Positions 27,901-52,886 of a stretch of 64,000 nt of DNA are shown here, in pieces. The first letter of the stretch is position 1. Each line of letters begins with the position of its first letter. Source of the stretch: Synechococcus sp. RCC307. GTDB taxonomy: Bacteria; Cyanobacteriota; Cyanobacteriia; PCC-6307; Cyanobiaceae. The stretch spans positions 1,049,105-1,113,104 of the forward strand of contig CT978603.1 of NCBI GenBank assembly GCA_000063525.1, in the 5' to 3' direction. The notes beneath the pieces are model-generated. The model was not told the origin of the DNA and searched no databases. It worked only from the letters and a program-made list of their open reading frames with translations. Made by a program: the position numbers and the translations under genes.

Positions 27901-28086
27901 GGGAAACTCGTGCCGTCCTGCCTGTTGTAGCGAAGGCAGAGTCGCTGTCGTTGATGTCGCCTTGTTGCTGTGCGCCACCCACAACACAAGGCCGCCACTG
28001 CCATTGATTACTCGCTGATCAAAAGAAAATCTGTTGACCTTTCATCCTGGTCGCAGCTGAGACGCAATGTGAGAGCAGTAAGCCCC

Positions 28087-29586
28087 ATGCGTCCCATGCG
28101 TCCTGTTGCTTTTGCTGCTGTTCTGGCTGTTCTGGGTGCCGCCCCAGCGGCGTGGGCCGATGTGGCGTTGATGGCAGGGCAGCGGGCCACTCCCCTCCGC
28201 GGCCAGTTCAACAGCGTGCCGGTGTTGCATTCCAACCAGCCGGAGCAGGTCACCGGTCCAGGCATCCTGGTTTCCACCACAGGAGGTCAAGCCAGGGCTG
28301 AAAACGGGCAGATGCTGAGGCATGCCACCTACACCTTCAACGGCGACTTCGGTATTCACGCCCATCACAAGTACTACCCCTCCGATGCCAGTCGCCTTGG
28401 TGGTGCTCGCCAACGGGGCACGCTGACCATCGCCACCATCGCCATCAACAACGGTGATGCGCCCGTCACCCTGGAGATGAGCCAAGGCTCAGTCAAAAAC
28501 AGCTTTGAAGCGCCTTACAAAGTCGACGGCCTGATGGGCGTCAAGGTGCAGGGTTATCGGCCCTGGAATGCGGGTCCTGGCGACGCCACATCGGTGCAAA
28601 TGTTGCGCGGCAAGTTGGATCGCAAGCTGCCCGAGCAGATCACCATTCCCGCCAGAAGCCGGATCATCTTGTTCAGCACCAACCTGCCGGCACGAGGCAT
28701 TGCCAACGCGCTACTCAAAGGAACCAGCTCAGGACCGTTCCAAATGGCTGTGGTGGCAGCGGAAGATCCCAAATCCGATGCTGATCTCTTTGCGGTCTTG
28801 GATGGCCAACAGCTCGCTGGTGGTCGCATCTACCTCGACAAAGTCGCCAAGATCAACAACGGCGAAGTGTTTTCACGGGTTGGTGGCGTTGCCATTGGTG
28901 ATGCCTACAGCGCTGCCATCAGCCATGACCTCAGGACCAGCCCCCTGCATGTGCCGTTCACAACCACCTCGCGGCACCACTTCGGCACTGGCGAGAACCA
29001 GGTGAACCGTCTGGCCACACGCATGCGCGATTCATCGCTCGACAACGTGGGGACCTACGGCGTTCGCTATGACGTCGATCTCAACCTGATCGGCAGTGGC
29101 AACCATCGCCTGATGCTCAGCCACCCGAGCATCGCGGGGCGTCAATTCACGGCCTTCCGCGGCACGATTGCCATCACCGACGGCCAAGAAACAGAAGAGC
29201 TGCATGTCGGCATGCGCTCTGGCCAAAGCCTGGAACTGAAGGCGCTGCAATTACGGGAAGGCCAGCCACGCAATCTGCGCATCAGCATGGTGTATCCCGC
29301 TGATGCCACCCCAGGCCACCTGCTCAGTGTTGTGCCTGAGCAACAGTTGCTGGCTCTGCGACAAAAGCAGACCATGATGCAAGTGGCTCAGCAGCCAGCT
29401 CAGCCAGCGCTGATGCCGGTGGCACCGCCACCGCCCATCCCACAACAACAGCGCTTGGGTGCTGGAGCCGTTCTGCAAAAGACAGCTCCACGTCTGCTCC
29501 CCTATGGCGGCTGGCCAAACCCTGCTCCGGCGATGCTTGATCCAGCTCGTCCCTATCAGTTGATGCGCCATTGGCTGAACCGTTAA
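28087..29586 (+). CDS. DUF3370 family exported protein
   Basis: A 499-residue exported protein. A signal peptide is clear (VAFAAVLAVLGAAPAAWA|D). The body resembles the cyanobacterial DUF3370 family, with LRGQFNSVPVLHSN, YTFNGDFGIHAHHKYY and VGTYGVRYDVDLNLIG segments, followed by a Pro/Gln-rich tail (about residues 430-465). Location is probably periplasm or surface. ATG 28087 is used since the signal begins there; earlier in-frame ATGs are weak. It lies 186 bases from the divergent 59-aa gene. Function is unknown. Confidence 0.8.
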   Translation: MRPMRPVAFAAVLAVLGAAPAAWADVALMAGQRATPLRGQFNSVPVLHSNQPEQVTGPGILVSTTGGQARAENGQMLRHATYTFNGDFGIHAHHKYYPSDASRLGGARQRGTLTIATIAINNGDAPVTLEMSQGSVKNSFEAPYKVDGLMGVKVQGYRPWNAGPGDATSVQMLRGKLDRKLPEQITIPARSRIILFSTNLPARGIANALLKGTSSGPFQMAVVAAEDPKSDADLFAVLDGQQLAGGRIYLDKVAKINNGEVFSRVGGVAIGDAYSAAISHDLRTSPLHVPFTTTSRHHFGTGENQVNRLATRMRDSSLDNVGTYGVRYDVDLNLIGSGNHRLMLSHPSIAGRQFTAFRGTIAITDGQETEELHVGMRSGQSLELKALQLREGQPRNLRISMVYPADATPGHLLSVVPEQQLLALRQKQTMMQVAQQPAQPALMPVAPPPPIPQQQRLGAGAVLQKTAPRLLPYGGWPNPAPAMLDPARPYQLMRHWLNR

Positions 29587-30527
29587 ACGACAAGGGCCGC
29601 AGGGTCAGCCTTGAATTGCGCGAGGACACGATTGAACGCCTCGACGCTTTGCGCAAGCAATGGTCGCTCCGCAGCCGCGGCGCGGCCATTCAGCGTTTGT
29701 TGGACGATCTGCTGCAAGATCTGCCAGCGGAGCACGATGTTGAATCAGAGCAAGACCCCCAACCAGAGGATCATCTGCAGGGGGCCATCGTGTTGGTGTC
29801 CTCCACCAATGAGACCCCAGAACCGGAACCAGAGGAACGCAGCACAGGGATCAATTTGCCCGGGTTCGTCTCGCGGCGCACAACCAAGCTCAAGCGGAGC
29901 CTCAAAGAACCGGTTGTGAGCGAGGCACAAGCCAGTGGCGAGCGTTTTGAAGTGATGGACGACCAGCAGCTCAGCGCATCCATTGCAGCTGTTCAAAACC
30001 AATGGATGTCGCTGTATGGCAGTGAGCCATCGGCCGCTGTTCTCGAAGCAGCCATGAACTGGCTCGGTCAAGACATCTGGCCCAGTGCAGATGCCTCAGA
30101 AGGCCAAAGCTTTACTTGGAACGCCGTTCAACAGGTGATGCTCGGTTTCTGTCCCAGTTGGGAGATCCGAGAAGCCAGCGTTGATCGGGTCGTTGTGGCT
30201 GCTGGAGTGCTGGAAGATCCCTTTGGCGCAGCATCGCTTCCAATGCGCGTGCCATCGCTGGTGGGTCGGATGACCCAACGGTTGCGGCGCCGGCGTCGTG
30301 GCTCACCATTTTTAGATCTACAGAGCACAATGAGCACCCAGGGCTCATTGAAGTTGCTGGGGTTGTCCACTGCGCCTGGCTTCAAGCTCAGCTTGTCGGA
30401 CATCCGTGAGGCCTACCGCCAAAAGGCTCTGGCTTGCCATCCCGATGCCGGTGGATCAGCAGAGGACATGCGCCGGTTGAATGAGGCTTATCAACTGCTC
30501 AAACAGCGTTACGTGCGTACCAACTAA
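29571..30527 (+). CDS. Ribbon-helix-helix / J-domain hybrid protein
   Basis: A 318-residue protein that joins two normally separate modules. Residues about 10-45 (RRVSLELREDTIERLDALRK; RGAAIQRLLDDLLQDL) follow the CopG-type ribbon-helix-helix DNA-binding pattern. Residues about 252-315 form a J domain with the HPD motif (LACHPDAGGSAEDMRRLNEA), the part that stimulates Hsp70. A conserved-looking middle region (QNQWMSLYGSEPSAAVLEAA) and a basic run of arginines separate them. It starts at TTG 29571, inside the DUF3370 gene, as no ATG is available in frame. The role is unknown; chaperone-linked regulation is inference. Confidence 0.75.
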   Translation: MAEPLNDKGRRVSLELREDTIERLDALRKQWSLRSRGAAIQRLLDDLLQDLPAEHDVESEQDPQPEDHLQGAIVLVSSTNETPEPEPEERSTGINLPGFVSRRTTKLKRSLKEPVVSEAQASGERFEVMDDQQLSASIAAVQNQWMSLYGSEPSAAVLEAAMNWLGQDIWPSADASEGQSFTWNAVQQVMLGFCPSWEIREASVDRVVVAAGVLEDPFGAASLPMRVPSLVGRMTQRLRRRRRGSPFLDLQSTMSTQGSLKLLGLSTAPGFKLSLSDIREAYRQKALACHPDAGGSAEDMRRLNEAYQLLKQRYVRTN

Positions 30528-30832
30528 GACTCTTAGTGAGTCTCATGTCTCGTCTCGCCTGAGATTAGCGAGCCGAAAAACTTGCGATGATGATTGCCGC
30601 CTGCCAACCCTCGCGTGTGCGACTCAAGGAGTAACTCAAAAGTCTCAGACAAGACCGCTGATGGGTCTCAGAACAAGCCACAACTGATACAAACAAATAG
30701 AATATTTGGGAAAGCTAAAAAACCTGTTTTTTCAGAGTTTTCGGCTGCGTTGCCCGTGAGGCAGTGAATGCAAGCCTCAAACAAAAATGCTCGGAATCAG
30801 GCACTTGGTCGGGCCCGGTCAATCGATGGCCA

Positions 30833-30865
30833 AATGGCCTGTCCAATGGCCGTGGACAGGCCATT
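30833..30865. repeat. Perfect 13-bp hairpin with seven-base loop
   Basis: Arms AATGGCCTGTCCA (30833-30845) and TGGACAGGCCATT (30853-30865) pair completely around loop ATGGCCG. There is no T-run on either side, so it is not an ordinary terminator. It sits near the middle of the long non-coding stretch. Confidence 0.75.
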
Positions 30866-31206
30866 ACGAAGAAAGCCAAAATCCAGTCCTGCCAGTGATT
30901 TTGCCATCCCTGATGATTTGGAGCGTATCTGTGTTTGACACAGTGACGCAAGCTGGATGGAGGCCTGAGTGACATGAATTATGAGTCTTAGTCAAGATTT
31001 GAAGCGAGACCTGAAGTGGTTCTCATTTGATACAGCCAGCACAGCGAAATTAGCCCAGCTAAGCAGCTAAATCGCCCATTAAAAAATCCGCCAGGAAGAT
31101 GGGGATCGCAGACCAAAAGAAACTAATCTCGTTCAACGCAATCTGTTCAAAGAGTGAGACCAGGCTTGAGAATTAAATAGGATTAGCAAGGCGAATAAAA
31201 GTGCTC

Positions 31207-31248
31207 CGAGGCGAGGCAACCCAACAAGTGATGACGAGGCGAAGCAAC
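31207..31248. repeat. 14-base direct repeat, one mismatch
   Basis: CGAGGCGAGGCAAC (31207-31220) and CGAGGCGAAGCAAC (31235-31248) are spaced 28 bases start to start, close to three helical turns, upstream of nothing coding on the plus strand. Confidence 0.6.
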
Positions 31249-31328
31249 ACCGCATGAATTAAATGTATTAACTGGCTCATTCGAGTCTCTACGCAGGACT
31301 TGAGACAAGTCGCAAGTGAGACGCCTGA

Positions 31329-31823
31329 TCAGGTGCTGGTCTGCATCCCTTGAATCAAATAGTCAAAGAACGGCGAAATGAATTGGGCGTCATCAGGGGA
31401 GAGCAAAGCAATGGAGGCCTGCTTGAGGCAGCGCATCGCTTCGACCATGCCCGGCATCGGAACGCCAAGGCTGTTGTACATCTCGCGGGCGCCGATCAGA
31501 CCCGTGCTTTCGATAAAGCTGGTGCTGCCGGCCAAACCGCCGTAAGTCACCAGCCGCAAATACCAGCTGAAATCCCGCAGGCATTGGGCCCGTTGCTTTT
31601 GGCCATAGGCATTACCGCCGGGCGCCACATAGTCGGGCTTGCGGGTGAAGAGTTGCTTGGCTGATTCATCAACGATCTTGCGCTCGTTCTCAGTCAGCAC
31701 ACGGGCCACCCGAACACGGCGATCGCCGTCGTTCAAAAAGGCCGCCATCGAGCGAAGCTCACCGCTCGTTGGATAACGGAGCTCGTCGTCAGCTTGAAGG
31801 ATTAGATCCTTTACAACGCTCAT
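31329..31823 (-). CDS. apcD: Allophycocyanin-B alpha subunit
   Basis: A 164-residue phycobiliprotein of the phycobilisome core, a terminal emitter that passes energy toward chlorophyll. The N terminus ([20 protein letters not shown]) and TTG-type segments ([20 protein letters not shown]) are ApcD-like rather than ApcA-like. The phycocyanobilin cysteine is Cys81 ([16 protein letters not shown]). Its stop lies in a CCTGATCAGG palindrome (31324-31333). AAGGTG lies six to seven bases before the ATG. It stands alone, away from apcABC. Presence argues for a phycobilisome-bearing organism. Confidence 0.93.
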
Positions 31824-52732: not shown

Positions 52733-52865
52733 CGCCGGGGAAGTGGGGAGGTTCCGGCGGGCGTTCTGACTCACCCCTTGGGGTTCACAGCTGCGGGACA
52801 GCGCCGGATTCACACCGGACTTTCCCCCTTTCCTTCCCGAGCTGATCCCAAGGGAAACCGGATCC
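52733..52865 (-). promoter_or_regulatory. Cobalamin riboswitch
   Basis: Read on the minus strand, the conserved core runs GGGGGAAAGTCCGGTGTGAA, then TCCGGCGCTGTCCCGC and AGCTGTGA (52785-52828), followed by GTCAGAACGCCCGCCGG (52751-52770), matching B12 riboswitch signatures. It ends about 18 bases before the hupE ATG. An alternative stem CGCCGG/CCGGCG (52754-52759 with 52733-52738) uses part of the core and could be the switch. B12 would lower hupE-cobW expression. Confidence 0.9.
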
Positions 52866-52886
52866 TGAAATTACCATCGCCGTCCC

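Follow-up and report, generated by a model that had tools for sequence, protein, structure and literature searches.

We found that the main element of the 801-bp gap between two convergent genes of Synechococcus sp. RCC307 is a single 27-bp quasi-palindrome (positions 30923–30949 of the window, i.e., of the whole 64,000-nucleotide stretch of DNA that was analyzed), which the original prediction had overlooked. The DNA element itself, its conservation among relatives, its position in the chromosome and the phasing of the motifs around it are well supported. The symmetric arms and asymmetric center, the single site at the terminus, the presence of a suitable recombinase, the lack of FtsK and the occurrence of integrase-less phages with the same palindrome make it probable that the gap is an FtsK-independent, dif-like resolution site of the chromosome terminus provided with accessory arrays. 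The features of the locus are as follows.

29571–30527, plus strand: gene of the RHH-J protein (318 aa; ribbon-helix-helix (RHH) N-terminus, J domain C-terminus), the candidate binder of the AGAC array
30527–30566, no strand: AGAC/GTCT cluster I, sites at 30527, 30540 and 30552 in a 12-bp register, with AGAT at 30562 next
30540, 30547, 30552, 30642, 30665, 31006, 31156, 31285, 31302, 31318: GTCTC/GAGAC pentamers
30642–30669, no strand: AGAC/GTCT cluster II, GTCT at 30642, AGAC at 30652 and GTCT at 30665, centers 11 and 12 bp apart
30833–30865, no strand: perfect 13-bp inverted repeat with TGTCCA at 30840 and TGGACA at 30853
30923–30949, no strand: 27-bp quasi-palindrome GCGTATCTGTGTTTGACACAGTGACGC, found once in the window and proposed as the crossover core
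30984–31010, no strand: AGAC/GTCT cluster III, GTCT at 30985 and AGAC at 31007, centers 23 bp apart
31285–31322, no strand: AGAC/GTCT cluster IV, GTCT at 31285, AGAC at 31303 and AGAC at 31319, outer centers 35 bp apart
31329–31823, minus strand: apcD (allophycocyanin family, PF00502), the convergent neighbor closing the gap, in synteny in relatives

The gap extends precisely from one convergent stop codon to the other, these ending at 30527 and 31329. As had been claimed, no gene fits into it, the longest listed ORF wholly within the gap having 86 aa, whereas its description as AT-rich holds relative to the genome only (G+C content of 48% in the gap vs. 59.5% in the window). The gap DNA used as a query gave matches in two close relatives only, one of them a 36-bp piece of 94% identity. 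The comparison of the same locus, which the original prediction had proposed as a check, demonstrated that the pair of RHH-J and apcD genes converging on a gap of 0.7–1.5 kb is kept in relatives. In the RHH-J protein, a profile search detected PF00226 (E 3.5e-7) and, weakly, PF01402 (E 0.01); the RHH was clear in the alignment and the helices of the model were consistent with it. The middle domain (residues 131–241) is all-helical, well conserved and confidently modeled, and no recognizable match to it was detected among solved structures. The DUF3370 gene (27970–29586) ends 16 bp past the start of the listed RHH-J ORF, and this same-strand overlap suggests that both genes may be co-transcribed. 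Elsewhere in the window, a cobalamin riboswitch (Rfam RF00174) is located at 52739–52877 on the minus strand.

The starting observation was the density of the GTCTC/GAGAC pentamers. All ten pentamers reported between 30540 and 31322 were present at the positions claimed, and the chance expectation of one or two was confirmed by dinucleotide shuffles of the gap (mean of 1.7). Ten pentamers were reached in none of 3000 such shuffles of the 801 bases; when the choice of the pentamer was left free, the same excess occurred in 0.6% of shuffles. In 464 kb of RCC307 DNA (20 samples of 20 kb together with the window, out of a genome of 2,224,914 bp in one contig), any other 801-bp segment contained at most 5 pentamers, and the gap held 12.5 per kb, compared with 1.4 per kb across ORF-free stretches elsewhere. 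The five GACTC/GAGTC variants were also found, with 1.65 expected.

Comparison of relatives placed these pentamers in a broader motif. The words most enriched in 35 palindrome-masked gaps were AGAC/GTCT (524 occurrences vs. 200 in shuffles), AGACT, GTCTTA and GTCTCA, so GTCTC is the RCC307 flavor of a family-wide AGAC/GTCT motif, for which the best composite was GTCTnATATnAGACTnATnnTnAGTCTnATnTnAGTCTnATATGAGAC. In 54 non-redundant loci of the second set, such sites occurred at 14.3 per 900 bp in the gaps and at 4.7 per 900 bp in the J gene itself. The distances between their centers were sharply quantized (11, 12, 20, 23, 24, 32, 35 and 44 bp). In the second set of loci, 388 of the 629 pairs from 54 non-redundant loci fell on the 11/12/23/24/35/36 register, with 19% expected. 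In RCC307 alone, the array is degenerate and the signal weaker, being still significant (6 of 13 pairs on register, P 0.003); the register of cluster I is conserved in relatives. A spacing of 11–12 bp corresponds to one helical turn, as expected when a protein binds cooperatively along one face of the helix. As in RHH operator arrays, the half-sites are helically phased and an RHH protein is encoded next to them. MetJ, also an RHH protein, recognizes AGAC half-sites (the metbox being AGACGTCT). The adjacent RHH gene and the analogy with MetJ make the RHH-J protein a plausible binder of the AGAC array. The suggestion that the pentamers form a binding array for one regulator was thus upheld as far as a phased and conserved array is concerned, although ordinary gene regulation is unlikely since the gap separates two convergent 3' ends at the replication terminus. 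A KOPS-like polar reading of the motif (GTCTC to the left and GAGAC to the right of the core in RCC307) was also considered and rejected, as the orientations are mixed in relatives.

The palindrome, with the consensus GCGTAHCTGY-N7-RCAGDTACGC, was the one element common to the nine gaps of this kind that were read. The exact pattern was present in 136 of 251 family genomes, nearly always in a single copy, and a reversed control pattern matched about a dozen. Many genomes were missed by the exact pattern because they carry variant arms (the CAGTGAC right arm or GCATAACTG arms) or, in high-light Prochlorococcus, the shorter GTACTG form; the RCC307 palindrome itself has one arm altered (CAGTGAC). 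In the second set, 71 J-gene loci from a collection other than the 251 genomes with some genome overlap, 70 contained the palindrome with a score of at least 16 (control maximum of 14) and the 71st carried the GTACTG form. The arms of 9–10 bp are symmetric and the center of 7–9 bp is asymmetric. Among 79 unique host sites, the arm positions were symmetric in 65–100% and the two arms covaried symmetrically, with the symmetry of the center at chance level. The element therefore resembles dif in its size (27 bp, against about 28 bp with inverted arms and a short asymmetric center) as well as in being a single-copy site conserved among relatives.

A second copy of the palindrome was detected in four of the 251 genomes, and in one or more of these it is on a contig resembling a phage or plasmid. 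In G170, the additional copy (contig 14, L410, 4170–4196) lies 83 kb from the terminus copy amid ordinary genes, next to a porin-like gene, and may be due to chance. In G157, it is located on a contig of 10 kb with phage- or plasmid-like character (contig 20, L412, 3306–3332), among whose products are a large helicase/primase-like protein and a capsid-like one; with its own copy of the palindrome, this contig suggests that extrachromosomal elements may also use it. The site looks specific to the family, judging from a one-mismatch search of 15 genomes of other families that returned a single isolated match. The palindrome was present in no genome of the g9 group (G013, G082, G109, G131, G149, G164, G178, G190, G202 and G213; L073). 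In G013, the recombinase is kept although neither J gene, array nor palindrome is present. The enzyme and the palindrome are hence not strictly linked, and the terminus site of the g9 group, in which the palindrome is missing and, in G013, the recombinase remains, must be different.

The other word enriched in the 35 masked gaps was TGTCCA/TGGACA. Over the 120 bp preceding the palindrome in 53 non-redundant loci, TGTCCA occurred at −55 to −59, −65 to −69 or −77 to −82 only. These three positions are about one helical turn apart, and 46 of the 53 loci have at least one such box. In RCC307, the boxes of the 30833–30865 repeat lie at −83 and −70 relative to the core.

The site is located close to the terminus of replication. 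In all 16 single-contig genomes, the palindrome was located at 0.385–0.523 of the circle from dnaN (mean of 0.488), i.e., like dif, within 0.12 of the antipode of dnaN; the J gene of WH7803 lies at 0.499 of the record. The GC skew of RCC307 was positive in all 12 samples on one side and negative in all 10 on the other, and its sign switched between the halves of the window that flank the site. In the genome of 1,657,990 bp that we take to be Prochlorococcus MED4 (G167), the palindrome is at 829,201–829,227. DNA from MED4 vesicles is enriched at 826–832 kb (PMC10913375), and the palindrome of the MED4-like genome (829.2 kb) falls inside this peak; the position of the site in that paper was taken from earlier literature, so the agreement holds within a few kilobases and not at the level of single bases.

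In the search for the cognate enzyme, no FtsK/SpoIIIE domain (PF01580) was detected in six genomes in which the controls rang, which makes the classical FtsK–XerCD reaction unlikely. Tyrosine recombinases were present in all 22 genomes screened, and at least 17 of these 22 have an ortholog of about 390 aa that is 46–67% identical to the RCC307 copy.

777,294–778,442 of the RCC307 genome: candidate tyrosine recombinase, about 390 aa

In four palindrome-bearing genomes, this recombinase was the single PF00589 match. Its catalytic residues, assigned from the known motifs of the family as R236, K263, R328, H351 and Y360, were invariant in the alignment. The model of the enzyme was nearest to archaeal XerA among solved folds, and in the curated families, the best NCBIfam score was also that for XerA, 19.7 bits vs. 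the cut-off of 220 bits; the protein stayed below the cut-offs for XerS and XerD as well, so that membership in XerC/D, XerS, XerH or XerA was not supported. Its N-terminal 80 residues were modeled confidently as a beta-beta-beta-alpha unit, the shape expected of the arm-binding domains of integrases, which could hold the TGTCCA boxes; the Pfam Arm-DNA-bind_2 profile recognized one of 15 members (E 0.009). A core accompanied by distant, phased boxes would fit a two-handed recombinase.

The palindrome is also carried by phages, having been found in at least 120 IMG/VR stretches. Its center started with a pyrimidine and ended with a purine, as in the hosts, in 77 of the first 80 matches listed. 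Among the matches listed, the nearest annotated relatives of the palindrome-bearing contigs were cyanophages, a large terminase was encoded in 78 of the 120 stretches read (57 T7-like and 21 of other types), one 27-mer was identical between hosts and phages and seven centers were common to both. Neither an RHH-J, apcD or recombinase gene nor AGAC enrichment was seen on the phage contigs and stretches among these matches. The phage TGTCCA boxes, which are phased like those of the hosts, lie at −59, at −70 and at the mirror images of these positions, and some immediately adjoin the core. PF00589 was found in 0 of 18 palindrome-bearing phage records vs. 3 of 6 palindrome-free isolates, a comparison of small numbers of related phages with partly fragmentary records. 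In combining the core of the host with the lack of an integrase (0 of 18, possibly fragments), the cyanophages resemble integrative elements exploiting Xer (IMEX). In AP013539, the palindrome lies in a 945-bp gap following the terminase gene, and no integrase is annotated. The palindrome was absent from the stretches beside the large-terminase gene of S-TIP37, KBS-S-2A and MED4-184 and was nowhere in P-SSP7, S-RIP2 and S-CBP3. No clear prophage was noticed between two copies in the 251 genomes, the four genomes with two copies having been examined in part. T7-like cyanophages known to integrate do so with an integrase of their own at a tRNA-Leu site (PMC8776855), so phages borrowing the host site would follow another route.

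Recombination at the site, the pairing of the proteins with the motifs and the use of the site by phages, all of which we infer, could be combined in the following scheme. Two protomers of one tyrosine recombinase would bind the 27-bp palindrome as the crossover core. The recombinase of about 390 aa, most likely the enzyme in question, would hold the TGTCCA boxes 50–80 bp away via its N-terminal domain, and the RHH-J protein would coat the AGAC/GTCT arrays cooperatively along the helix. With the arrays acting as accessory sequence, chromosome dimers could be resolved independently of FtsK as replication ends, and cyanophages that have the core and the boxes and no integrase might borrow the host enzyme. 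A more elaborate version, less likely than not, would be a separate type of resolution machinery in picocyanobacteria: a two-handed integrase-like recombinase, using terminal sites of both core and arm type, would act in a synapse organized by RHH-J, which would bring the Hsp70 system in place of FtsK, at a site captured by lytic cyanophages.

Other explanations of the locus were considered. The site might organize the terminus without any recombination, with RHH-J on the AGAC arrays and RHH-J or another protein on the palindrome anchoring or condensing the terminal region in the way known for MatP or ParB-like proteins. In favor of this, the RHH-J gene neighbors both the array and the palindrome, and G013 lacks all three while keeping the recombinase. 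We nevertheless consider this role unlikely, as the symmetric arms and asymmetric center resemble a recombinase core and phages have the palindrome with its boxes in stretches free of AGAC enrichment and of the RHH-J gene. A replication fork trap, the palindrome being a Tus- or RTP-type arrest site where the forks meet, would also agree with the location, which is close to the antipode of dnaN and coincides with the skew switch. Known fork traps consist of several polar sites facing each other, unlike the one near-symmetric palindrome per genome observed here, and the carriage of the palindrome by phages would be left unexplained, so this explanation seems very improbable.

Still less credit was given to a structured or regulatory RNA, the second candidate of the original prediction, or to a bidirectional terminator serving the convergent genes. 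The inverted repeats at 30833–30865 and 30923–30949 and the fold z-score speak for it, but this score was only about −2 on both strands, Rfam searches at gathering and relaxed thresholds returned nothing relevant to the gap, and the promoter/terminator scan revealed no terminator-like site and one promoter-like site at chance level; there is no T tract either. Little is conserved in the gap outside short DNA elements that are palindromic or phased, the bases of the arms are conserved as sequence beyond pairing alone, the spacing of the TGTCCA boxes tracks the DNA helix, and in some relatives the apcD end has a hairpin of its own. Least probable of all is a functionless leftover of a mobile element or of a former attachment site: the same palindrome is present on phages and the recombinase resembles integrases, yet a neutral relic would not show arms and box spacing conserved family-wide, from Synechococcus to Prochlorococcus, at a constant place in the terminus.

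A dif-like resolution site thus remains the preferred reading, and the locus is probably the long-missing site at which Synechococcus and Prochlorococcus separate joined chromosomes. The precise set of candidates (the 27-bp core, the boxes, the array, the RHH-J gene and one recombinase) makes the question directly testable. The site could also serve as the molecular address of the terminus DNA found enriched in vesicles of Prochlorococcus, and it suggests how integrase-less cyanophages could exploit host recombination.

Among known systems, the locus shares with FtsK–XerCD/dif the single terminus site, two arms of about 11 bp and a short center, and differs from it in the lack of FtsK (six genomes), in the arms, which are symmetric and not of the XerC/XerD type, and in a recombinase that does not reach the curated Xer cut-offs. 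As both FtsK and curated Xer membership were looked for and not found, we do not file the site in the XerCD/dif family; a function of the dif or cer type is the best explanation. Kono et al. predicted with dif profiles no such site in any cyanobacterium (PMC3025954). The combination of one tyrosine recombinase with one short inverted-repeat terminus site is that of XerA/dif, XerH/difH and XerS/difSL. FtsK activates recombination by XerH and XerS, as it does by XerCD. XerA works without FtsK (PMC5357621). Unlike these single-recombinase systems, the one described here combines a longer recombinase, whose N-terminal domain has the shape of an arm-binding domain, with phased boxes at a distance and an extensive phased array, and the recombinase is encoded away from the site.

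The plasmid resolution sites cer and psi likewise consist of a core plus accessory DNA: about 180 bp bound by other proteins accompany the Xer core, and FtsK is not needed (PMC5357621). The site of RCC307 is chromosomal, with TGTCCA boxes and AGAC arrays instead of ArgR, PepA or ArcA sites, and its accessory protein would be RHH-J. Short half-sites about one helical turn apart, in either orientation and with the RHH gene adjacent, are found in the ParR/parC, omega repressor and MetJ arrays, from which the present array differs in the fusion of the RHH to a J domain and in its location downstream, between convergent genes. Finally, the presence of the host terminus site in phages that have no integrase recalls Xer-exploiting elements such as the CTX phage, although the carriers here are T7-like and other tailed cyanophages of which no integrated copy was seen.
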